64,000 nucleotides of DNA from a virus, in IMG/VR virus record IMGVR_UViG_3300047459_000157, positions 1 to 64,000 of that record. One strand, 5' to 3'. Within the stretch, counting starts at the first letter, position 1; each line of letters starts with the position of its first letter. This document shows, in pieces, positions 7,725 to 51,987 of this stretch. The notes beneath the pieces are model-generated. The model had not been told where the DNA came from and made no database searches. It worked only from the letters and a program-made list of their open reading frames with translations. Both the position numbers and the translations under genes were made by a program.

Positions 7725-8099
7725 ATGGCTATATTTCATCATATAATACAACCTTCTGTTACGGTTACTCATTCAAGTAATACTCACACAGTAGATTTAG
7801 ACAAACCAGGTAATAATTATTTAGTGTCAATTAATAGTGGCGCTGCCAATGTTATTGCTTTTAGTAATCTAGATGCTTCAAGGGTTGGTAAATCTGGTAA
7901 TATTATTCTTCAAAACCCAGCAAACGTAAGTAATACAACTATAGCTATGGATCCAGGCGACGCCTATACTCCAGGTGGAAGTACTATAAACTTTAACTTA
8001 ACAGCATCCGCTACAGCTATAATATCATATTATGTTTACGCATCGAATAAGATACTTTTAAACTATGTAGGTAAGTTTCAATTATTACCTCAACCTTAA
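7725..8099 (+). CDS. Hypothetical beta-rich virion protein (124 aa)
   Basis: A small protein with alternating polar/hydrophobic stretches (VTVTHSSNTHTVDL, GNIILQNPANVSNTTIAM, ATAIISYYVYASNKILLNYVG), consistent with a compact beta-sandwich such as a fibre knob or accessory fibre subunit. No known family recognised. It is the first gene after the terminator and precedes the repeat-fibre cluster by 9 bp, so it may begin that transcript. Confidence 0.5.
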   Translation: MAIFHHIIQPSVTVTHSSNTHTVDLDKPGNNYLVSINSGAANVIAFSNLDASRVGKSGNIILQNPANVSNTTIAMDPGDAYTPGGSTINFNLTASATAIISYYVYASNKILLNYVGKFQLLPQP

Positions 8100-8108
8100 T
8101 ATAATAGC

Positions 8109-10658
8109 ATGAGGTGGTTGTGGAATAGAATAGATTTCTGGAATACTACTACTACGTTTAACACGAGTAGGAGTACTAATAGGTTGACTAGCACGTCTAG
8201 ATCGACCAATACTACATTTAGTACTAGTAGAACGACTACATTTTCTACATCTAAACCAACTAGCACTGTAGTACAAACAGCTAGAAATACTACAACTGTA
8301 TATAATACTACTAGAACAACTAACACCACAATATCAACCTCAAAGTCAACTACGACACAATACAATACTACTAGAAATACAACAGTATCAACTGATAGGC
8401 TGACTAGTACTGTAGTTAGCACGAGTAGATCAACTAATACCACATATGGTACTAGTAAATCTACAACTACAGCTTACAACACTACAAAATCAACAGTAAC
8501 AGCTTATAACACATCAACTGTAACTAGTTTTGGTACAACAGTACCTACAAGTATAAACACATCGACTGTTTATAACACAACTAGATCAACATTAACTACA
8601 TTTTCAACAAGTAGATCCACCCAAACAACATATGCAACGAGTAGAAACACTACATATTCAACAAGTAGAATAACTACTAGAACTATAGGTACGAGTAGAA
8701 CTACTCAAACTGTATATAACACTGTTGTATCAACAAGTAGAATAACTAACACAATAACTATAACTGCGTTTAATACATCGTTCGTTACAGCTTATAATAC
8801 TTCTACGTCAACATTAACGAGTAGAACTACTACAGTTAGCACTAGTAGACTAACTAGTACTGTCGTGAGCACGTCTAGGACAACTTCTAAGGCAACATCT
8901 ACTGTTTACAATACTAGTACAACAACATCTAAAAGTACTGCAAGAGACACTACTACAGTTTACAATACAACGTTTAGTACTTTTGTTAGAAACACTATTA
9001 ATACGTTAATAACGGCTTACAACACAACAACAGCCACTACAACTACATTTAATACGACAAGATCGACACTTACGTCGTTTAATACTACTTATGCTACTAG
9101 CAGAAACACAACAGAAAGTAGAAACACAACAACAACGTATACAACTTCTACAGTTTTTAATACCAGTACAGTTACTCAAACAAGTAGAGTAACAACTTAC
9201 GGTACGTCAAGATCTACAACAACAACATTTGCTACATCTAGAAATACAACTGAAAGTAGAAATACTGTTACAGTATATACAACTAATACAGTTTATAACA
9301 CAACAACTTCTACAACAACTACGTTTAACACAACAACGTTAACGTCGTTTAATACTATAACTACTTTTTCAACAAGTAAGAATACAGCTACATCTAGAGC
9401 AACTACTGTTTCAACTAGTAGATCAACTCAAACAACTTACGGTACGTCAAGAATTACTACCACAAGTAGGGCAACTACAACTATTTATATAACTAATACA
9501 GTTTATAATACAACTACGTTGACTACTTTTAATACTACAACTACTTTTGCTACGACTAGAGGCACTGCCACTACTTACGCTACTAGTAGAAGCACGGTAA
9601 CTATATACTCAACTAGTAGAAATACAACTGAAAGTAGATCAACAACAACATCTAGATCTACTCTCACGGTATATAATACTAGTACAACTACTACTTTTAA
9701 TACACATTATAACACTAGTACAACAACTGTATTTACGACAAGCACTGTGGTTAGTACAACTAGATCAACATTAACAGCTAGATCTACAAACACAATATAT
9801 ACAACAAGTACTACGTACCTTACAACTAGATATACTGAGTTTAATACTAGTTACAATACTGTTAAATCAACAAGTAGAGGAACTGCAACATCTAGAAGTA
9901 CTGCTACATCTAGGTCAACAACAACTGCTTACACAACTGTATTTAATACTAGTAGAAACACTGGTGAAAGTAGAAACACAACTACTACATACAATACGTC
10001 TAAAAACACTGGCGAAAGTAGAAGTACTACGACTATATACGGAACAGCTACAACTACTACATTTAATACAACATTTGGTACATCTAGAGGTACTAGTCAT
10101 GGAACAGCTACAGCTACAACTACTACGTTTAGTACTAAATATAATACATCTAGAACTACTACATTTAACACTAGTACAACAACAACAACAACGTACAGTA
10201 GTTCATTTAATACATCATTTAACACTAGTAGAAATACGTTAACAGCTAGATCTACAACAACAACTCATACTTACGGTACTTCAAGAAATACAACTACTCA
10301 TTACAATACCACTCAAGTATTACCAAGTAGAGGAAGAACGAACTCTACTGCGTTCCCATCATCAAACTGTAATAACAGTACGTTCGTAACAATATACATA
10401 TTGAAAAACAACTCAAGCTCTAGTGCAACCGTTGAAGTTAATGATAACTTATATACAAACTCAAGTGGTTCATCATCTCTAAGTGGAGGTAACTACGGTA
10501 TATCTCAGAACAATGGTGGTAACGCTGTGAAAGTAGCAACAGTATCAGCATACGGTGGTCTAGTAACTGCAGTTCATAATTGTAACAGTGGCGGTGGCGG
10601 TAGAGGCGGCGGCGGCGGCGGTAGTGATCCAGGTGGTGGTGGTGGTATAGATCCATAA
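8109..10658 (+). CDS. Giant Thr/Ser/Asn/Arg repeat fibre protein A
   Basis: An 849-residue protein, almost all of it made of 8- and 10-residue units of the type [F/Y/hydrophobic]-N-T-S-R-x-T-x-T-x (for example FSTSRSTQTT, YATSRNTT). Thr and Ser occupy every second position and Arg is nearly the only charged residue, which suggests stacked beta strands of a long fibrous solenoid or beta-spiral. An N-terminal MRWLWNRIDFW may anchor it; the last roughly 130 residues form a different globular domain (SNCNNSTFVTIYILKNN) ending in a Gly-rich tail. Codons for the repeats are scrambled (ACT/ACA/ACG, AGT/TCA/TCT). Its stop overlaps the following methyltransferase ATG (TAATG). A fibre or adhesin role is inferred. 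Confidence 0.7.
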   Translation: MRWLWNRIDFWNTTTTFNTSRSTNRLTSTSRSTNTTFSTSRTTTFSTSKPTSTVVQTARNTTTVYNTTRTTNTTISTSKSTTTQYNTTRNTTVSTDRLTSTVVSTSRSTNTTYGTSKSTTTAYNTTKSTVTAYNTSTVTSFGTTVPTSINTSTVYNTTRSTLTTFSTSRSTQTTYATSRNTTYSTSRITTRTIGTSRTTQTVYNTVVSTSRITNTITITAFNTSFVTAYNTSTSTLTSRTTTVSTSRLTSTVVSTSRTTSKATSTVYNTSTTTSKSTARDTTTVYNTTFSTFVRNTINTLITAYNTTTATTTTFNTTRSTLTSFNTTYATSRNTTESRNTTTTYTTSTVFNTSTVTQTSRVTTYGTSRSTTTTFATSRNTTESRNTVTVYTTNTVYNTTTSTTTTFNTTTLTSFNTITTFSTSKNTATSRATTVSTSRSTQTTYGTSRITTTSRATTTIYITNTVYNTTTLTTFNTTTTFATTRGTATTYATSRSTVTIYSTSRNTTESRSTTTSRSTLTVYNTSTTTTFNTHYNTSTTTVFTTSTVVSTTRSTLTARSTNTIYTTSTTYLTTRYTEFNTSYNTVKSTSRGTATSRSTATSRSTTTAYTTVFNTSRNTGESRNTTTTYNTSKNTGESRSTTTIYGTATTTTFNTTFGTSRGTSHGTATATTTTFSTKYNTSRTTTFNTSTTTTTTYSSSFNTSFNTSRNTLTARSTTTTHTYGTSRNTTTHYNTTQVLPSRGRTNSTAFPSSNCNNSTFVTIYILKNNSSSSATVEVNDNLYTNSSGSSSLSGGNYGISQNNGGNAVKVATVSAYGGLVTAVHNCNSGGGGRGGGGGGSDPGGGGGIDP

Positions 10659-11221
10659 TGGGTTTTCAAGAAGAATACCAGGACACAAGCTTAGAGTTTG
10701 ATCACGACAAGATAGTATTTTTTGAATCTAGTCGTGGTCGTGTTTGGCAAGTGATGATGCGTTGGGAAACACCTATAATGAACAAAATAGCCGAGCTATG
10801 TGTTAATGAAGGTGATCATGTTTTAGAATGTGGTTTTGGCATGGGAATACTGTCAGATGCTATACAAGCAAGAAAACCATCATCACACACGATATGTGAG
10901 AACCATAAAGATATAATACCAAGATTAAGGTCTTGGGCTAAAAATAAATCTAATGTTATATTACACGAAGATAAGTGGATAAATGTAAAAGATAGTGAGT
11001 ATAGTGTAATATTAATAGATACATACGCAGATGATGATTTGCCAAAATTTAAACAGTTTTGTGAAGCTAAAATGAACAAGGGTTTAGTCAGCTGGTGGAA
11101 TCACTCTGGTAAAGAAAATATGGGTTGGGACGATGTTAAGTTTTATGATGTTAACATTAAACCACCTAAAAACGCATATTATAATAATTCAATTTATAAA
11201 ATACCAATTAAAGAACTATGA
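10658..11221 (+). CDS. SAM-dependent guanidino N-methyltransferase (GAMT/RMT2-like)
   Basis: A class I methyltransferase of the guanidinoacetate/arginine-delta-N methyltransferase type. Recognisable landmarks: RWETPIM (residues 36-41; the Glu corresponds to the guanidino-binding Glu of GAMT), SAM-binding loop VLECGFGMGILSDAIQ (55-70), LRSWA (90-94) and VILIDTY (117-123; Asp121 matches the second guanidino-binding Asp). These fit methylation of a guanidino group, such as protein arginine or a small guanidino compound. It overlaps the upstream repeat fibre by one base and the next gene by four. Sitting between two Arg-containing repeat fibres, its substrate may be those arginines (inference). 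Confidence 0.8.
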   Translation: MGFQEEYQDTSLEFDHDKIVFFESSRGRVWQVMMRWETPIMNKIAELCVNEGDHVLECGFGMGILSDAIQARKPSSHTICENHKDIIPRLRSWAKNKSNVILHEDKWINVKDSEYSVILIDTYADDDLPKFKQFCEAKMNKGLVSWWNHSGKENMGWDDVKFYDVNIKPPKNAYYNNSIYKIPIKEL

Positions 11222-11775
11222 TAGATGAAAGTTTAATAACAGAGTATGATGGAAATAACTTTACGATAAGTAAGGAGGACTGGGTTGTCAATACTGACGG
11301 TAGTACTCAAGAAGTTTCTGTTATACAATATAAAAATAGAGTAACTGCCGGTGGTGCTGAAAACTGGGAGCCATGCTTGTCTGCATATTTCAACGATTGT
11401 GAAGGGTGTAATGCTAATACTTGTTTTGATAATATAACTTATGGTGATGTTTTAGTTATTAGTTTAGGTTTAGGTTCAATACCTGAATATATACAAAGAA
11501 ATAAAAACTACACAAGTATTGATGTTATTGAAGAAGATCAACAGTTGATTGATCACGTAGATTGGTTACATAATGATATAAATGTAATAAAAGTAGATGA
11601 TTTTGAAACATATCAAAATTCTAAAAAATACGATTTAATTATAATAGAGTGCTACGGTGACGTAAGTGAATTTAATTCATCTGGCACAATGAGAGTAAAC
11701 TATACGCCTCAATTAAAAGATGATGATAGTATAATTATTTGTCCATTCATTAATTTAACATATAGAAATGCCTAA
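11218..11775 (+). CDS. Methyltransferase-like Rossmann-fold protein
   Basis: A 185-residue protein whose second half has a class I methyltransferase/spermidine-synthase-like core: VLVISLGLGSIPEYIQ (motif I, GxG-type), YTSIDVIEEDQQLI (motif II with acidic ribose-binding residues), VIKVDDF and DLIIIECYGD (motif IV-like). The N-terminus contains a Cys cluster (CLSAYFNDCEGCNANTC). The substrate cannot be told from sequence. It overlaps both neighbours (ATGA at its start, 8 bp at its end with the next fibre), so the two methyltransferases and two fibres look translationally coupled. Confidence 0.6.
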   Translation: MIDESLITEYDGNNFTISKEDWVVNTDGSTQEVSVIQYKNRVTAGGAENWEPCLSAYFNDCEGCNANTCFDNITYGDVLVISLGLGSIPEYIQRNKNYTSIDVIEEDQQLIDHVDWLHNDINVIKVDDFETYQNSKKYDLIIIECYGDVSEFNSSGTMRVNYTPQLKDDDSIIICPFINLTYRNA

Positions 11776-14008
11776 TACTAGTACCGCCACGGTTACTAGT
11801 TTTAATACTAGTACCGCTTTTTCTACAATTACTCAATATTCTACTGCCACAACGTTCAGTACGAGTAGGAATACTAGTGTGACTACAAATAGAGGTACAA
11901 CTGAAACATCAGCTACTAGTAGAACCACTACTTTCAACACTGATAGAAATACAACTAGAAGTACTAACACAACAACAACAACTTCTTATACTACATACTT
12001 TAACACTAGTAGAGAATCTGGTAGAGCAACTGATGAAAATACTAGTAAATCAACTACAACTGCATATACTACTTCTACTGTTTATAATACAACAAAATCT
12101 ACACTTACATCATATACTACTTCTACTGTTTATAATACAACTAGAGGAACAGATAAGTCTACCATAACTATTTACGGTACCACAACAACGTTTAATACTA
12201 CTACTGTATTTAACACTACTTATAACACCTCTACTTTAACAGGTAGAAATACAACTTTTAATACTTCTAAAAATACATTAGAACAAAGAAGTACCACTAC
12301 AATATATTCTACTACAACTACTTTTAATACTAGTACGCTTACTTCTACTAGTAGAGTAACTTCATATGCTACTCAAAGATCTACGTCTAGAACTACAACT
12401 ATTTCTACGTCTAAAAATACAACCACAACTTTTACAACTACTACTATATATACTACTAGTACAGTATTTTTAACAGAAAAGTCAACTACAACAGCGTTTA
12501 ACACCAGTACAACTACTGTTACTACGTTTAATACCACTAGATCTACATCTACTAATAGAAATACAACTTATGCTACTAGCAGGAACACAACTGAGTCAAG
12601 AAGTACTATAACTATATTTTCTACGCAAACGTATTTTAATACTTCTACTAATACAACTACTGTATTTAATACTACTACTACAACAGTATTTAATACACTA
12701 ACAACTTTTAACACAACTAGAAGTACTGGAACGTCAAGAAATACTACAATATCTACAGAAAGACAAACTAACACTACTTACGCTACTAATAGAAACACTA
12801 CTGAGTCAAGAAATACAACGACTACTTACACTACTAGTACTACGTTTAATACATCAACATTAACTGTAACTGCTTTTAACACTAGTACAACAACTGTTTT
12901 CAGTACAACAACTACATTTAGCACAAGTAGAAATACAACAGAACAAAGAAGCACTACCACTGTATATACAACTACTACTACGTTTAATACAAGTACTCTT
13001 ACTTCAAAAAATACAACTACTACGTTTAATACAACTAGAAGTACTAATACTACGTATGGAACATTTAGAAACACGTTACAGACTGATCAAATATATAGAA
13101 ACACAAGTAGATCAACAAATACTATAACTATAACTGCTTATACAACGTCTTTTACAACAAGTTTTTCTACAAGTAAAAATACAACAACGTCTTTCACGAC
13201 AACTTACAACACAAGTACTAATACAACCACTACGTTTAACACTAGTACAACAACTGTATTTAGTACCACAACAGCTTACAACACTAGTACAACAACAACT
13301 AGAGGAACTGCTAAAGATACTACGACTATATATACGACTACGTTTAATACTAGTACACAAACGCAAACAACAACAATAACAGCGTTCAATACATCTACAA
13401 CGTATACAACTACGTTTAATACTAGTACTACTACAACTTTTAATACAGCTACAGCTACAATAACAGCTTTTAACACAAGTACTGAAACTATTACCACGTT
13501 TGCTACTAGCACAACAACGTTAACTGTTTATAACACCACAACAGCAACAAGTAGAACAACTTTGTATAATACTAGTACAAGTACTGTAACTACATTTAAT
13601 ACTAGTACAAATACTATAACTGCTTACAATACAACTACTGCTACAGTTACTACATTTAACACGAGCACGAACACGTCAACCGTATTTAATACTACTACAT
13701 TGACTACATTTGTAACCTCGACGTCTACAACAACTGTTTACAATACTGTAACTGCAACTGTAACCACTTTTGAAACTAGTACAGATACAGCAACTATTTT
13801 TAATACAAGTACTAATACAATAACAACGTTTAATACTAGCACTGTTACAGCTTTTAATACGACTACAGCTACTGTTACTACATTCACAACAACGACTACG
13901 TTTAACACTACGTTTAACACTACTAGATCAACTAACACAAACTGGTACGATGGTAGTGGTGATAACTTTGGTCAACTTGGTGACGCACCTTTCACTGGTG
14001 GTAGGTAG
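11768..14008 (+). CDS. Giant Thr/Ser/Asn/Arg repeat fibre protein B
   Basis: A 746-residue paralogue-like partner of the fibre at 8109-10658, with the same units (TFNTS, YATSRNTTESR, TTTVFNTS) and a strong Thr bias. The second half shifts to units without Arg (FNTSTxTxT), so Arg is concentrated in the first two-thirds. It has no Gly-rich tail; it ends in a distinct short domain (NWYDGSGDNFGQLGDAPFTGGR). Its start lies inside the upstream methyltransferase-like gene. A fibre or surface-adhesin role is inferred from composition and position; there is no signal peptide or membrane segment. Confidence 0.7.
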   Translation: MPNTSTATVTSFNTSTAFSTITQYSTATTFSTSRNTSVTTNRGTTETSATSRTTTFNTDRNTTRSTNTTTTTSYTTYFNTSRESGRATDENTSKSTTTAYTTSTVYNTTKSTLTSYTTSTVYNTTRGTDKSTITIYGTTTTFNTTTVFNTTYNTSTLTGRNTTFNTSKNTLEQRSTTTIYSTTTTFNTSTLTSTSRVTSYATQRSTSRTTTISTSKNTTTTFTTTTIYTTSTVFLTEKSTTTAFNTSTTTVTTFNTTRSTSTNRNTTYATSRNTTESRSTITIFSTQTYFNTSTNTTTVFNTTTTTVFNTLTTFNTTRSTGTSRNTTISTERQTNTTYATNRNTTESRNTTTTYTTSTTFNTSTLTVTAFNTSTTTVFSTTTTFSTSRNTTEQRSTTTVYTTTTTFNTSTLTSKNTTTTFNTTRSTNTTYGTFRNTLQTDQIYRNTSRSTNTITITAYTTSFTTSFSTSKNTTTSFTTTYNTSTNTTTTFNTSTTTVFSTTTAYNTSTTTTRGTAKDTTTIYTTTFNTSTQTQTTTITAFNTSTTYTTTFNTSTTTTFNTATATITAFNTSTETITTFATSTTTLTVYNTTTATSRTTLYNTSTSTVTTFNTSTNTITAYNTTTATVTTFNTSTNTSTVFNTTTLTTFVTSTSTTTVYNTVTATVTTFETSTDTATIFNTSTNTITTFNTSTVTAFNTTTATVTTFTTTTTFNTTFNTTRSTNTNWYDGSGDNFGQLGDAPFTGGR

Positions 14009-14012
14009 AAAA

Positions 14013-14061
14013 GCGTAAAAACGTGTAACTATTATAATACTAATAAATTAAATTTAATTAT
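14013..14061 (+). promoter_or_regulatory. Candidate promoter/leader, copy 1
   Basis: The gap holds GCGTAAAAACGTGTAACTAT followed by TATAATACTAATAAATTAAA up to the ATG. A similar block (GCGT ... GCGTAATAATATAA) lies the same distance (47-49 bp) upstream of the next gene's ATG at 15021, suggesting a shared promoter or leader element. The TATAAT could serve as a -10. This is pattern recognition only. Confidence 0.35.
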
Positions 14062-14970
14062 ATGGAAATGTTTAATAAAAAAGAGTTAGACTCAAGAATA
14101 GGTCCACTCAAAAAAAGCAAAAGTTTATACGACTTAGAGCAAGTAGAAGGTTACTTCAGAAGACGTTGTGCTGAGATCGGTATTGAATGTGCTTACGATG
14201 TTATGGCAGAAGAAATGCCATATTTTAAAACACTCGGTTATACTGAGTATGCTGGTAATTTTTACATACAACCTTTAAATTACAAGTTAAGAAACGAGCA
14301 AATGATAGAGTCATGGTATGATAAGGAAGAACTTGGTTACCCAACTGTTGATTATGCTTCTTATCTTATTGACAAGGTTGTTAAAAATGATAGTAATAAA
14401 TATACAGACAGGGATGATGTTACATCAAAATACGAAGCTAAAGATAATTTAGTTGTTTTACCTGGTTCTAATAAAGTTAGAGAAAATGTATGTTTAAATA
14501 AACTAAAGTGGATTAAAAAAGAACATGGAGATAATGTGTACTTTAAGCCACATCCAATAACAACACATCAAATTATTGGTGAGTTAAAAGATTTTTTTGG
14601 TGAAGAGTGTATACTACCAAGAAACGCAGATATGTATTACTTTTTACAAAAAGCTAAAAACGTATATACAACACACATAAGTGAAAGTGCTGTTTACGCG
14701 GCTGTTTTAGGTAAAGCGATACAACCAATTGATGTTTGGAATAATATACAAAGAGGATCTTTTTATTGTATAAATAATCATGTTTTTAGAAATCAAGTAC
14801 AAGCAAAAAAGTTTATTAATTTTTGTTTCTCAAGTTACAAGTCAGGTATTATAAATCCTGAAGTTGATAAAAACTGGAAGAAAAAAATAGATGATTATTT
14901 AGAGTGGATAATGTTTAAAAGAGAAACGTATAAAAACTGGTACTTAGCATCAGAAGTAAAAAAGAAGTAA
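14062..14970 (+). CDS. GT-B-like glycosyltransferase (capsule-synthesis/KpsC-like)
   Basis: A 302-residue protein resembling capsular polysaccharide synthesis glycosyltransferases (the KpsC/KpsS and CDP-glycerophosphotransferase-like group). Visible features: VVLPGSN, NVYFKPHPITTHQIIGEL (the KPHP motif, roughly 165-182), then LPRNADMYYFLQKAKNVYTTHI and SESAVYAAVLGKAIQPIDVW, matching the nucleotide-sugar-binding C-domain with Ser-Glu and a conserved Gly-Lys. It directly follows the two repeat fibres and methyltransferases. KpsC-type enzymes transfer beta-Kdo; with kdsA/kdsB in the same window, CMP-Kdo is a plausible donor (inference). Its acceptor is unknown. Confidence 0.6.
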   Translation: MEMFNKKELDSRIGPLKKSKSLYDLEQVEGYFRRRCAEIGIECAYDVMAEEMPYFKTLGYTEYAGNFYIQPLNYKLRNEQMIESWYDKEELGYPTVDYASYLIDKVVKNDSNKYTDRDDVTSKYEAKDNLVVLPGSNKVRENVCLNKLKWIKKEHGDNVYFKPHPITTHQIIGELKDFFGEECILPRNADMYYFLQKAKNVYTTHISESAVYAAVLGKAIQPIDVWNNIQRGSFYCINNHVFRNQVQAKKFINFCFSSYKSGIINPEVDKNWKKKIDDYLEWIMFKRETYKNWYLASEVKKK

Positions 14971-15278: not shown

Positions 15279-15483
15279 AAAAATAAGCATAGGTAAAGAC
15301 TATAAGAACGATGCCATGCATTATGCTGTTGGTCAAGAAGTGTATGGAGGTCATACTATTGAACATATAATCGAAGAAGAAACTAAGTTTAGTATATTGA
15401 TAAAGAAAGCGGATGAAGTACTTCCTTGGAAAGACTTTAACAAGAACATGGCAATATCTGTAGAATATAACCTTGAATATTAA
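15262..15483 (+). CDS. Hypothetical protein (73 aa)
   Basis: A small protein of unknown function with the conserved-looking stretch HYAVGQEVYGGHTIEHIIEE and FSILIKKADEVLPWKDF. There are no membrane segments. It overlaps the previous gene by 17 bp and the next by one base, consistent with membership in the operon that continues into packaging genes. Confidence 0.6.
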   Translation: MDHLIRKISIGKDYKNDAMHYAVGQEVYGGHTIEHIIEEETKFSILIKKADEVLPWKDFNKNMAISVEYNLEY

Positions 15484-16091
15484 TGAAGACAGTATTTAAT
15501 TATATTGTAAAACCATTAAACGAAAAAAGATACCAAAACACACTACCTGTCGGTGACAAAGAGTTAATAGTTAATACTGATAACTTTGACCACAGGTATG
15601 TGAATAGGTTTGCTAAAGTTGTTGGAATACCAGCTAATATTGAAACACCAATAAAAAAAGGAGACATTGTTGTAGTACATCACAATGTTTTTAGAAGGTG
15701 GAAAGATATGAAAGGTATAGAAAAAAACAGTAAGTCATATTATAAAGATGATATGTGGTTTGTTGAGAACGATCAGATATTTTTATATAAAAGATATTGT
15801 TGCTGGGTTGCAAACGATACTTTTTGTTTTGTAAAGCCAATAAAAGCAAAAGATCCATTAAGCGTAGAAAAAACAGAACCTTTAATAGGTTTTATGTCTT
15901 ATCCTGATAAAAAACTACAAGACGCTGGTATAAAAGCAGGTGATCTAGTAGGTTTTAAACCAAATACTGAATATGAGTTTGTTATAGATGGCGAACTATA
16001 TTATAGAATATTCAGTAACTCAATTACAATTAAATATGAACATAAAGGAGACGAAGAAGAATATAATCCAAGCTGGGCAAAAGGCAGTTGA
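15483..16091 (+). CDS. GroES-fold protein, probably duplicated domain
   Basis: A 202-residue protein with two GroES-like segments. The first half has FAKVVGIPANIETPIKKGDI (strand, loop, GD turn) followed by VVVHHNVFRRWKDMKG; the second has the GroES-type C-terminal pattern AGIKAGDLVGFKPNTEYEFV then IDGELYYRIFSNSITIKYE. Both resemble the GroES barrel (KxGDxVxF...DGExYxIxxxxDI). It may be a specialised co-chaperonin for the phage GroEL, for example for capsid folding as T4 gp31 is (inference). Domain assignment is by eye and moderately confident. Confidence 0.5.
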   Translation: MKTVFNYIVKPLNEKRYQNTLPVGDKELIVNTDNFDHRYVNRFAKVVGIPANIETPIKKGDIVVVHHNVFRRWKDMKGIEKNSKSYYKDDMWFVENDQIFLYKRYCCWVANDTFCFVKPIKAKDPLSVEKTEPLIGFMSYPDKKLQDAGIKAGDLVGFKPNTEYEFVIDGELYYRIFSNSITIKYEHKGDEEEYNPSWAKGS

Positions 16092-48000: not shown

Positions 48001-48119
48001 AATTCTTTGATTTAAATAATAATGGTAAATATGATTGGTGGGAATATATACTACCTATTATATTATTATTATGTGTTGAAGTTGTAGCTGAGGTTATAGC
48101 TAAATTTTTGATATCTTAG
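47997..48119 (+). CDS. 40-residue membrane microprotein with EF-hand-like loop
   Basis: A GTG start overlaps the upstream stop (GTGA). The product MKFFDLNNNGKYDWWEYILP has a canonical 12-residue EF-hand calcium loop (D5-L-N-N-N-G-K-Y-D-W-W-E16) directly before a hydrophobic helix (about residues 18-39). It is last in the rightward unit; its 3' end overlaps the GT29-like gene on the other strand by 20 bp. Calcium binding is inferred from the motif only. Confidence 0.55.
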   Translation: MKFFDLNNNGKYDWWEYILPIILLLCVEVVAEVIAKFLIS

Positions 48120-48888
48120 TCTTTTTAGGTATAGACGATATAATCTTTTCACCTTTCATCCAACCGTTGTATTTCACAACACCTTCCTCAAGATCACTTA
48201 ATATATACCAATGTAACAGCTTATTCTTTTCTAGCTGCTTAACATATTTCTGTTCCATTTTAGAATCGTGAGCTGGTCTTTTTAAAACATATACTGGTAA
48301 ATGCCAGCTATGAGGTTTGCAACCACTTTCAATTCCTTTTTTGTCTCTTGGTTTTATGTTAGTTTGTTTAGCAAAAAAATCAAAACCTATTAAGTGTATA
48401 TCTTTATACACTTTTATTTTTTCTATAAACCATATAAGACTTATAAAACCTGCACTAGGTCTATACTCACTAGTATCGATCATATCTTTATTAAACCTAT
48501 TCTTCATAAGATCTATAATCTCTTGATCTGAATACATAAACTCATAAGGCATGTTCTTAGGTAAATGTTCTTCTAACTTCCACTCTTTTAATATAAAATT
48601 ACCTCTACATCTATTAACTAAGATCTTAGTATTTTTATACTTACCTGTTTCAAAGTTTTTTCTATTCTTGTGCCATTCAGGAGCTCTAAACTGACCTGTT
48701 ATCCATATGTCACATTTACTACCTAACTGTTTTTGTTGTGTTTCGTTGGCTGATATAGCTCTACCAAACCTAACAACAATATCAAAGCCGTCAATAAACT
48801 CAGCAAGATTATGTTCCATCATCTCAACTGAGTTACCAACGAATAACACTGATTTATCTTTTACAAACTCTTGTATACTGTCCACCAT
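48100..48888 (-). CDS. GT29 (sialyltransferase-like) glycosyltransferase
   Basis: A 262-residue protein with the sialyl-type motifs of GT29: VLFVGNSVEMMEHNLAEFID and DIVVRFG (L-motif), RPSAGFISLIWFIEKIKVYK / DIHLIGFDFF (S-motif, about 144-174) and HDSKME (H-x4-E, VS-motif). GT29 enzymes use CMP-activated nonulosonic or ulosonic acids, which fits the CMP-Kdo genes upstream in the same operon. It overlaps the GT8-like gene by 28 bp. The acceptor, virion fibre or host surface sugar, is not known. Confidence 0.75.
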   Translation of the reverse strand: MVDSIQEFVKDKSVLFVGNSVEMMEHNLAEFIDGFDIVVRFGRAISANETQQKQLGSKCDIWITGQFRAPEWHKNRKNFETGKYKNTKILVNRCRGNFILKEWKLEEHLPKNMPYEFMYSDQEIIDLMKNRFNKDMIDTSEYRPSAGFISLIWFIEKIKVYKDIHLIGFDFFAKQTNIKPRDKKGIESGCKPHSWHLPVYVLKRPAHDSKMEQKYVKQLEKNKLLHWYILSDLEEGVVKYNGWMKGEKIISSIPKKTKISKI

Positions 48889-49502
48889 GCTAATGATTTT
48901 TCTGCTCCTTTAAATTTATCAAACCAAGGTCCACCGTTAGTATAATGTAATGCTTTAGCATTGTTACACTCGTAATGACCTACTAAACAATTATATTCTT
49001 TAGGTATATCACCTATGCTCTCTGCCCACCTTAATTCATGTAGCTCTGATGGTTTTGCTTTGTCTAAATATTCTTTTGTTAAATGTTTTAATTTAGAACA
49101 ATTAAAAATAACTAAGCTCGACCAGTTTTTTCTTGGATAAGACTTGTTTTCTATACCGTCCATTTTAGTTCCAGTGACACTATAGTACTCATGCTTTACT
49201 ACAGCTATATCGTTATCACCTAAGTAACTTACTAACTCCATAGGATCACATTGCCACAAAAAGTCGTTATCACAAAACATTGCTATACCGTCATATCCAC
49301 ATAGCAAAGGCACATAAAACCTGGTAAACGAAAACTCTGTTGATTCACCAGCTACATCTTCTCTACCGTATACATCTGTATGTTTTAATTTAGCTTTGTC
49401 TAAGTAGTATATCTTTAACTGTTTATTAAAGTCTAACATAGATTTTCTACAAACTTGAGTTGCTTGTGGAAACTTACTATCGTGCCCTATAAATATTCTC
49501 AT
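48861..49502 (-). CDS. GT8-like glycosyltransferase
   Basis: A 213-residue GT-A-type enzyme: N-terminal RIFIGHDSKFPQATQVCRKS (nucleotide-sugar loop), CDNDFLWQCDP containing the DxD metal motif, and a C-terminal LHYTNGGPWFDKFKG (HxxxGxxW of the GT8 class). It would transfer a sugar from UDP- or similar donors. Stop and start overlap both neighbours, so it belongs to the same coupled operon as kdsA and the GT29-like gene. Confidence 0.7.
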   Translation of the reverse strand: MRIFIGHDSKFPQATQVCRKSMLDFNKQLKIYYLDKAKLKHTDVYGREDVAGESTEFSFTRFYVPLLCGYDGIAMFCDNDFLWQCDPMELVSYLGDNDIAVVKHEYYSVTGTKMDGIENKSYPRKNWSSLVIFNCSKLKHLTKEYLDKAKPSELHELRWAESIGDIPKEYNCLVGHYECNNAKALHYTNGGPWFDKFKGAEKSLAWWTVYKSL

Positions 49503-50278
49503 AATTGTTTTAGTATTTCTTCAAATTTATCTAAACGTACCATATTAGATCCGTCACTCCAAGCAGCACTAGGATTTTCGTGTACTTCAAAAAAGTAGCC
49601 ATCAACGTTTAATGCTTTAGCAACTTTAGCTATAGGTAAAGTATATTTAGGTTGACCAGCTGTTGTATTACCTGAGTTAGGTCTTTGTGTAGAGTGAGTG
49701 CAATCCATTATAACTGGTACACCTAGATCTTTCATATCAACTATTTGTCTAGGATCTACAACAAGATCACCCATACCAAACATACTACCTCTTTCAGTTA
49801 ACATAACTTTATTGTTACCTGTACTCTTAACTTTATCAATAGCGTGTATCATACTACGACCATCTACAAATTGTCCTTTCTTAATATTAATAGTTTTAAA
49901 AGTATTACCTGCGGCAACTAATAAATCAGTTTGCCTACATAGATAAGCTGGTATTTGTATAATGTCTACAACATTGGCTAACTCTTCTGCTTGCCAAGGT
50001 TCATGTATGTCAGTTGTAATTTTACAACCTTGTAACTCTTTTAATTCAGCAAATATATCTATAGCTTTATCTATACCAATACCTCGTTTAGAGTTTACAG
50101 ATGTTCTGTTTGCTTTATCAAAAGATCCTTTAAAATAATAATCAAATCCATACTTTTCTGCTAGTTGACTACACTTGTCAGCTATCTCATGTGCTTGTAT
50201 TCTACCTTCGATACTACAGCTTCCAGCTATTAATATCGGCTTCTGTGTTGATTTCAATTCCATTATATTTAGTTTCAA
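49499..50278 (-). CDS. kdsA: 3-deoxy-D-manno-octulosonate 8-phosphate synthase
   Basis: Makes Kdo-8-P from phosphoenolpyruvate and arabinose-5-P. Strong match to KdsA: IAGSCSIEG (Cys21), FKGSFDKANRTSVNSKRGIG, TTDIHEPWQAEEL, DIIQIPAYLCRQTDLL, LTERGSMFGMGDLVVD, DCTHSTQRPN and FFEVHENPSAAWSDGS. The Cys, His, Glu and Asp needed for metal binding are all present, so this is the metal-dependent class. An alternative start five codons in is also possible. The 5' part overlaps kdsB by 65 bp. Confidence 0.92.
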   Translation of the reverse strand: MKLNIMELKSTQKPILIAGSCSIEGRIQAHEIADKCSQLAEKYGFDYYFKGSFDKANRTSVNSKRGIGIDKAIDIFAELKELQGCKITTDIHEPWQAEELANVVDIIQIPAYLCRQTDLLVAAGNTFKTINIKKGQFVDGRSMIHAIDKVKSTGNNKVMLTERGSMFGMGDLVVDPRQIVDMKDLGVPVIMDCTHSTQRPNSGNTTAGQPKYTLPIAKVAKALNVDGYFFEVHENPSAAWSDGSNMVRLDKFEEILKQL

Positions 50279-50870
50279 TTACTTCTATATCGTAGTTTGC
50301 TAGTATTCTATTTTGCTCTAAGCTCTCTTGTTTATATTTATCTTCCATAGTTCTATATGTTTTCAATAAATAAGGGTGATAACCATATATACCTAAATGC
50401 CTATCACCATAACCTATATCGGATCTCGTAAACCACATTGCTTTACCTGATTGATGTATAACTTTAACATCGTCAGCTTTAGCACCTTTAGTATAAGCTG
50501 TTAAACACAGTGGAGGTTCTGATGTACCTAATATTCTTTTCTTAATAGGTTTCATAGTCTCGTGGTTTATATCTATCATGTCTCCTTGTATGTTTAGTAT
50601 ATAATCATAACTACCTACTAAATCTAACACAGCACGTTTAGATAACCTATGTGTACCATTTTCAGCTGGGCCTGTTTGTATACACCATTTAATTGGTATA
50701 TGCTTTGCAATACGTTTACTATCTGTTGCAACAAACGTATCAAAACCCATCATACGTACTTTGTCAAACACAATACGTATCAGAGGTTCATCTTCAAACT
50801 TCATCAACATCTTGTGTTTGATTCTAGTACTATTAAGTCTTGCTGGTATTACTACAGCTATGTTTCTCAT
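50214..50870 (-). CDS. kdsB: CMP-Kdo synthetase
   Basis: Couples Kdo to CMP using CTP. The 218-residue sequence follows KdsB: NIAVVIPARLNSTRIKHKML (CTP-binding loop), FVATDSKRIAKHI, NILNIQGDMIDINHE, LGIYGYHPYLLKTYRTM, SLEQNRILANYDIEVIET and C-terminal GIEINTEADINSWKL. It is somewhat shorter than E. coli KdsB (248). The last 18 or so codons also encode the start of KdsA in a different frame. In the same operon as the two glycosyltransferases. Confidence 0.9.
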   Translation of the reverse strand: MRNIAVVIPARLNSTRIKHKMLMKFEDEPLIRIVFDKVRMMGFDTFVATDSKRIAKHIPIKWCIQTGPAENGTHRLSKRAVLDLVGSYDYILNIQGDMIDINHETMKPIKKRILGTSEPPLCLTAYTKGAKADDVKVIHQSGKAMWFTRSDIGYGDRHLGIYGYHPYLLKTYRTMEDKYKQESLEQNRILANYDIEVIETKYNGIEINTEADINSWKL

Positions 50871-51211
50871 ATCTTCTTACCTGCAGTTCTTCTGATTATA
50901 TCATCGTGATTAAACTCAGCCCAATATAATTCAAAAGCTACACCATCTTCAATACCTTCAAACTGATGTATCTTACCAGGTTTAACCATAGTAAAATCAC
51001 CTGCTTCAAGTATTGTTTCATCTAACAAGCCTTGATCTTCTTGCCAAACTCTGACAAGCATTTTGCCGGACTCAACAAAAAATCCGTTCCATTTAAATCT
51101 ATGCTCGTGTTCAGAGCATTTAAATCCTTTATTAAATTCTATTCGGTGAAACTCTAATACTCCATTTTTATGGACCATTTCTGTTTTACCCCATATTTTT
51201 CCTGCTTTCAT
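50867..51211 (-). CDS. Cupin-domain protein
   Basis: A 114-residue single-cupin protein with HEHRFKWNGFFVESGKMLV (His-x-His ... Glu metal motif) and GDFTMVKPGKIHQFEGIEDG (second motif His). Small cupins are often sugar epimerases/isomerases or dioxygenases; a sugar-nucleotide role is suggested by kdsB next door. Overlaps kdsB and the hydroxylase gene by four bases each. Confidence 0.75.
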   Translation of the reverse strand: MKAGKIWGKTEMVHKNGVLEFHRIEFNKGFKCSEHEHRFKWNGFFVESGKMLVRVWQEDQGLLDETILEAGDFTMVKPGKIHQFEGIEDGVAFELYWAEFNHDDIIRRTAGKKI

Positions 51212-51987
51212 ATTTTTTTATTAAAGTAAGGTTTAGACCATCTAGCTTTGTTCATAAGTCTTACAGGTCTTTTCTTTTTTTGTTTAGGCATATCTGGTAA
51301 CCAGTTATACCATTTATTTCTATTGTTTTCACTTAACGAACTTATATTAAACTTATCTAACGCTTGATCTTTTTTATTAGCAAAATGAATACTAATAAGC
51401 ATCCTAGCACCAGGTGCATCTACCTTATGCCACATACCTATTGGTATGTAAAGTAAATCACCTGCTTCCAGAGTTATCTCTTCTAGTATTTCTTTGTTAT
51501 CAAAGTCTTTATATAAAGTCCATTTAACTCTACCCTCAGTGTGAAACAAAAAGTTTTCTGTACCATCTTTATGAGGTGGAAAACTCTTTGATCCTGCTTT
51601 CGGTGAAGCATATATGTTACATTGGCCATGAGAAAAATATCTTTCTAACTCAAAGCATATATCAACTAAAGGTTTATTCTCGTAGTCTGCAAAAGGTATA
51701 ACAAAAGATTTACCTTTTTTCCACAAGTTATGTACCTCTTGTTTACTTAACATAGGTTGTTTTAGTTTCTTGTGTTTATCTAAACACCATCTAGTATCTT
51801 CATCATCATAGTCTAGTATCTGTAAACTTCTAATGTGAGGGTACTTGTTTAAGTAAGTATCTAGTAATTTAAAATTAAATAAATTTTTAAATTTATTTCT
51901 TCTAATAACAAGATGTTTCTTTTTCCAATACTCTTTAAAAAAAGTACCTACATCTATTGGATCTAGTATTTCATTTATTGTTACCAT
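51208..51987 (-). CDS. JmjC/Cupin_4-type 2-oxoglutarate hydroxylase
   Basis: A 259-residue oxygenase like YcfD/ROXA. The N-terminal FFKEYWKKKHLVIRRN matches the family; the Fe(II) site is PPHKDGTENFLFHTEGRVKW (His139, Asp141) and LLYIPIGMWHKVDAPGARML (His187). Family members hydroxylate protein arginine or histidine residues. The phage substrate is unknown; Arg-rich fibres are a speculative target. The C-terminus is basic. It overlaps the cupin and the small CGCE-type gene. Confidence 0.8.
   Translation of the reverse strand: MVTINEILDPIDVGTFFKEYWKKKHLVIRRNKFKNLFNFKLLDTYLNKYPHIRSLQILDYDDEDTRWCLDKHKKLKQPMLSKQEVHNLWKKGKSFVIPFADYENKPLVDICFELERYFSHGQCNIYASPKAGSKSFPPHKDGTENFLFHTEGRVKWTLYKDFDNKEILEEITLEAGDLLYIPIGMWHKVDAPGARMLISIHFANKKDQALDKFNISSLSENNRNKWYNWLPDMPKQKKKRPVRLMNKARWSKPYFNKKI

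Follow-up and report, generated by a model that had tools for sequence, protein, structure and literature searches.

The locus described here lies at positions 8109–14970 of the window, by which we mean the whole 64,000-nucleotide stretch of DNA analysed, taken from the 70,850-base record of a marine phage (IMGVR_UViG_3300047459_000157) whose terminase is similar to the terminases of Flavobacterium elemo and Cellulophaga phages. It encodes, on the plus strand, five open reading frames (ORFs), all five of which were recovered where an earlier note on this DNA had placed them: R1 (8109–10658), a Thr-rich alternating-repeat tail-fibre protein of 849 residues; MT1 (10658–11221), a methyltransferase of the guanidinoacetate methyltransferase (GAMT) family with 187 residues; MT2 (11218–11775), a 185-residue protein like class-I methyltransferases and spermidine synthases; R2 (11768–14008), a second Thr-rich alternating-repeat protein of 746 residues; and GT (14062–14970), a GT-B-like glycosyltransferase of 302 residues that belongs to phrog_26179 and carries a KPHP motif. 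The overlapping start and stop codons claimed for the block are present at R1/MT1, MT1/MT2 and MT2/R2, while R2 and GT do not overlap, GT starting 53 bases past R2. The earlier note had also proposed a search for the same gene order elsewhere, and the succession of R1, a methyltransferase slot, R2 and GT is indeed shared by dozens of marine phage contigs in IMG/VR. The slot holds MT1 and MT2 together (in the window and in L006–L008), MT2 alone, or MT1 alone.

The assignment of R1 as a fibre rests on its ORF, on its Thr periodicity and on the tails of its relatives. Thr makes up 37% of R1 and 45% of R2, and in both it recurs with a period of two, the ratio of even-lag to odd-lag Thr pairs (1.35 and 1.39, respectively) being reached by 0 of 500 shuffles. 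At its C-terminus R1 has a beta-type domain that ends in Cys (BD, 10323–10592), followed by a Gly-rich tip, GGGGRGGGGGGSDPGGGGGIDP (10590–10655), in which Arg832 (codon AGA, 10602–10604) is the candidate methylated residue; the whole 70.85 kb record has a single copy of the DNA pattern that encodes this tip. Relatives of R1 in L017, L019, L021 and L022 end in an S74-type chaperone, as is typical of trimeric fibres (in L019 the Pfam S74 match, 1.1e-3, is below the cut-off). Such S74-like C-termini were seen in R1 relatives with MT2 alone downstream, and the R1 of the window lacks S74.

Sequence, profile and predicted structure all place MT1 firmly among the relatives of GAMT. GAMT proteins were its best PDB matches by sequence (phmmer 3.5e-12 against the human enzyme), GAMT came first in a profile search (4e-23, the runner-up family scoring 6e-5), and the top five PDB folds retrieved by Foldseek with the AlphaFold2 (AF2) model (predicted local distance difference test (pLDDT) 93.9) were all GAMT (E 3.5e-11 to 2.9e-8). 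With the human (3orh) and rat (1khh/1xcj) enzymes MT1 has in common the fold, the GFGM S-adenosylmethionine (SAM) motif and the W-E and D-T-Y/F motifs of the guanidino site. Among 110 distinct relatives, E37 was kept in 109 of 109 aligned residues and D121 (of ‘IDTY’) in 107 of 109, and the two align with the guanidino-site residues E45 and D134 of rat GAMT. Asp134, the match of D121, is the proton acceptor of GAMT (review PMC12471008). The description of MT1 as a guanidino-methyltransferase-type enzyme is thus borne out by sequence, profile and fold; of the substrate-binding positions that had been proposed, W-E (E37) and D121 stand, while R35 of ‘RWETP’ does not, being usually D, S or G in relatives, which leaves W-E alone conserved in that motif. 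No named family for either MT1 or MT2 was found in Pfam, NCBIfam or PHROGs.

We compared three unrelated protein families (classes I–III) from loci with and without MT1, and in each the enzyme was accompanied by an Arg in a particular setting. In class I, the Thr-rich R1, the Gly-rich end contained R[G/N] in 30/30 proteins with MT1 versus 0/24 with MT2 alone, the S74 tails of the latter having been removed in silico before the ends were compared. In phages that lack Thr-rich fibres, relatives of MT1 have as neighbours fibres or small proteins of virion type in which an Arg is flanked by Gly. Class II, a BACON-type protein, carried RG in 20/20 cases with MT1 and in 0/6 without (the MT1-less ends being GGGGMP, GLGDGGGEDP, GGGKDGGEGLDP, GGGGRP (twice) and GGGGGGGKGGGGEP), and class III had the Arg in 42/42 with MT1 versus 3/10 without, the seven remaining MT1-less proteins having Lys in four (two near-identical pairs), Thr, Gly and Asp. 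For classes II and III, no MT1 turned up in the contigs counted as MT1-negative, several of which are fragments. Fisher tests of the with/without counts ignore kinship, and their values are not readable as probabilities. In L332, a contig listed as belonging to a Flavobacteriales genome, a fibre gene is followed by MT1 and next by the gene of a protein containing SGRGGTEYR; a search of GenBank phages for homologues of the two RG partner families gave no match. This co-occurrence with the RG motif suggests that MT1 methylates the guanidino group of a single Arg in a Gly-rich tip.

The independence of this association was assessed on trees built without the tip columns, that of class I being built on the GT protein. 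MT1 and the Arg each changed three times in class I and five times in class II, concordantly in both, and in class III five changes of MT1 were accompanied by two of the Arg, never discordantly; changes in opposite directions were absent from all three classes. With all branches taken at face value there are at most 10 concordant pairs and 0 discordant ones (sign test, 0.002).

Some 500 MT1 stretches were seen altogether, and the enzyme also occurs in other forms. Where it is alone in the slot it is often ~345–366 residues long, with a C-terminal extension, absent from the protein in the window, that weakly resembles Hint/intein domains (intein-containing chain 9hth, 5e-5 by profile; Pfam Intein_splicing, 1.9e-3 at best) and is also seen at L020:8577-9029. 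These long proteins are mostly paired with R1 tips that end in CxRGC, those of L063 and L068 lacking the Cys pair. An origin of the CxRGC codons as a Shine-Dalgarno sequence was rejected, the next ATG lying tens of bases downstream in most of the examples examined and other tips not preceding MT1. Four bacterial proteins (L333, L334, L338 and L339) of ~400 residues have a GAMT-type C-terminal half, preceded by an N-terminal part resembling TPR repeats.

MT2 tracks a different feature of the fibre, namely a Cys-ending beta-type C-terminal domain. A hidden Markov model of the domain found BD in 37/41 contexts with MT2 versus 0/89 with MT1 only, and the four MT2 contexts without BD have a short terminal stretch with a Cys at or near its end.

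GT, in turn, goes with the Thr-rich shafts. Counted over contigs that span the methyltransferase slot to GroES, it accompanied Thr-rich fibres in 56/56 cases; 12 contigs had neither, L065 had GT with no Thr-rich ORF detected (1/13), and further contigs without Thr-rich fibres gave GT matches in 0/19. Foldseek found GT-B likenesses for its model (MnaA 2e-4, KpsC 2e-3, TagF 4e-3), and its sequence profile had no match in the PDB. Named phages show a comparable arrangement: among cultured Caulobacter phages, the GT homologue is directly preceded by a Thr-rich ORF in BL199 and Quill_5.2 and by a Thr/Tyr-rich one in Cr30, and in the cultured Vibrio phage KVP40 a Thr/Ser-repeat protein (KVP40.0254, L363:2830-3423) lies two genes upstream of a partial GT homologue (KVP40.0256). 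The Thr spacing of BL199 was beaten by 0/500 and 2/1000 shuffles and that of Quill_5.2 was borderline (56/1000), with no significant difference from shuffles for Cr30 and KVP40. All four differ from the window in that no MT1 homologue was found in them; within the GenBank phage set, one uncultured megaphage was the sole source of MT1 homologues. The association of GT with Thr-rich fibres (56/56 versus 1/13) thus favours the earlier proposal that it glycosylates their Thr and Ser, glycosylation itself being what we infer from it.

A second candidate enzyme, a GT29 (sialyltransferase)-like gene on the minus strand ~33 kb from the fibre block (48100–48888; Pfam PF00777, 4.1e-7), was present in the window and in 6/7 Thr-rich contigs of at least 55 kb versus 0/7 without Thr-rich fibres. 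In the window it is clustered with genes for Kdo-8-phosphate synthase (KdsA, 49499–50278, minus strand; NCBIfam 7.7e-97, above the cut-off; PDB KdsA 1.2e-68) and for a CMP-Kdo synthetase-like cytidylyltransferase (KdsB-like, 50214–50870, minus strand; Pfam PF02348 1.4e-23; NCBIfam KdsB 2.4e-33, below the cut-off), and despite its distance it tracks the Thr-rich fibres. KdsA and KdsB occur together in L008, L054, L092 and L079 and were found neither in the MT2-only contigs L144, L164 and L172 nor in contigs without Thr-rich fibres. Because the pair only partly tracks the Thr-rich fibres, the nature of the sugar is a guess; the Thr/Ser repeats are perhaps glycosylated with one of Kdo (3-deoxy-D-manno-octulosonic acid) type. 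Beside the Kdo genes lies a JmjC/cupin-type gene (51208–51987, minus strand; Pfam JmjC_2, 4.8e-16), a possible hydroxylase. The surroundings of the fibre block comprise a small protein encoded directly upstream of R1 (7725–8099, plus strand), with phmmer matches in most related loci that extend far enough upstream, as well as phage-encoded GroEL-like (323–1891) and GroES-like (15483–16091) genes, the latter directly after the block.

The genes, the family of MT1 and the joint occurrence of each enzyme with its module are observed, whereas the activity and Arg substrate of MT1, the sugar, the role of MT2 and the benefit are inferred. We consider it on balance probable that the locus serves to modify the phage’s own fibres, each enzyme acting for one fibre module, and that Arg832 of the tip is methylated by MT1. 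GT would glycosylate Thr and Ser of the repeat shafts of R1 and R2, probably aided by the GT29-like enzyme encoded ~33 kb away and, in certain genomes, by CMP-Kdo made by the phage; MT2 would modify, or aid the maturation of, the beta-type domain just before the RG tip; and MT1 would act as a protein arginine N-methyltransferase on the guanidino group of Arg832, within the Gly-rich RG tip with which R1 ends. The benefit may be that receptor binding is tuned or protected. Several observations weigh against this. When only well-supported branches of the trees are counted, ~5 concordant pairs are left, which is too few for a level of 0.05, and phylogenetically independent changes on such branches are few; class III adds at most 2 joint changes, and about half of its pairs keep the Arg despite a difference in MT1. 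In that class L205, L233 and L245 retain the Arg with MT1 not found in their contigs, and conversely L009 (megaphage LR745206) and L041 have MT1 and no obvious RG partner. The genes for tip and enzyme are adjacent, and exchange of the two as one cassette could therefore inflate their association. As to the other enzymes, the profile of MT2 gave weak matches to class-I methyltransferases and spermidine synthases and no clear family, and the AF2 model of GT has a middling pLDDT of 78.1.

The earlier note had read the locus differently, with MT1 methylating the numerous Arg of the Thr repeats while GT glycosylates their Thr and Ser, a reading favoured by the gene order, by the kinship of MT1 to guanidino-methyltransferases and by the regular even spacings of Arg within the repeats. 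The repeats are disfavoured as its substrate because their Arg fraction is not higher with MT1: mean repeat Arg in R1 was 3.2% with MT1 alone, 6.7% with MT1 and MT2 and 4.8% with MT2 alone, and pooled MT1-positive fibres did not differ from MT2-only ones (Mann-Whitney, p 0.06 for R1 and 0.75 for R2). Moreover, the Thr-rich fibre is absent from 63/93 distinct MT1 contexts, the regular occurrence without repeat fibres that the note itself had named as telling against its proposal, and many Arg-bearing Thr-rich fibres lack MT1. With neither the Arg nor the Lys content of the repeats tracking MT1, and a single Gly-rich RG Arg doing so instead, we rejected repeat Arg as its target; this part of the note is probably wrong and the reading quite improbable, while the joint conservation of the genes, the type of MT1 and the tie of GT to Thr-rich fibres are retained from it. 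Methylation by MT1 and/or MT2 of the sugars that GT adds to the fibres would fit the presence of GT within the same block, but both enzymes are also present in contigs that lack GT or Thr-rich fibres and MT1 is nearest to a guanidino N-methyltransferase; on the first of these grounds this very improbable alternative was also rejected.

Two further explanations leave the tip Arg unmodified or incidental. MT1 and MT2 could be assembly factors of the fibre tip that have a methyltransferase fold, replace the S74 chaperone and methylate no fibre. They do occupy the usual position of a fibre chaperone, and S74 was never seen in a Thr-rich R1 before MT1 and is usual in R1 before MT2 alone; however, MT1 hardly varies at its SAM-site and guanidino-site residues, and in other families MT1 adjoins fibres with S74-type tails, which makes such a role distinctly unlikely. 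Alternatively, MT1 might act on a host protein or on some free metabolite with a guanidino group, the RG tip being its neighbour in an inherited cassette. The substrate of GAMT itself is a small molecule, and adjacent genes are able to move together, both of which speak for this explanation; yet the Arg-Gly feature accompanies MT1 in three unrelated families, whichever side of the gene they lie on, and in a single scaffold the Arg gives way to Lys or disappears where MT1 is missing, and we regard it as unlikely.

Methylation of the tip Arg by MT1 would set the enzyme apart from GAMT, from which it differs in being viral, in its length of ~187 residues, in its fixed place beside fibre-tip genes, in the frequent fusion of its relatives to Hint-like domains and in its presumed protein substrate. 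The RMT2 protein-Arg enzymes, of the same group as GAMT, are presumably also kin of MT1. Eukaryotic protein arginine methyltransferases target Gly-flanked Arg (RGG/GAR motifs), and the candidate target of MT1 is of the same kind, although those enzymes belong to another family, whereas the activity of MT1 is putative and directed at one Arg in a virion tip. Phage-encoded glycosyltransferases are known to modify the virions of the phages that carry them, for example in cluster F1 mycobacteriophages, and this has been suggested for Maravista (PMC11256854). There a phage glycosyltransferase acts on the phage’s own structural proteins, as GT would here; GT differs in tracking a Thr-rich shaft and perhaps in its probable sugar donor. 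Our search of open-licence PMC papers found none that connects GAMT or an Arg methyltransferase with phage tails, nor, in titles and the beginnings of abstracts, any on a phage-encoded Arg methyltransferase.

The wider proposition, that phages carry a dedicated GAMT-family protein Arg methyltransferase that methylates one Arg at the Gly-rich tip of the receptor-binding protein they themselves encode, within a modular scheme of separate escort enzymes for the shaft, the tip domain and the tip Arg, we hold to be evenly poised between true and false. If it is true, Arg methylation would join the known modifications of phage virions and the GAMT family would gain a viral, protein-modifying branch, with one residue, Arg832, named as the target for a test. 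The glycosylated Thr-rich shaft could be tested in cultured phages, the Caulobacter phages first. Fibre loci would then follow a rule by which the kind of tip can be predicted from the neighbouring enzyme.

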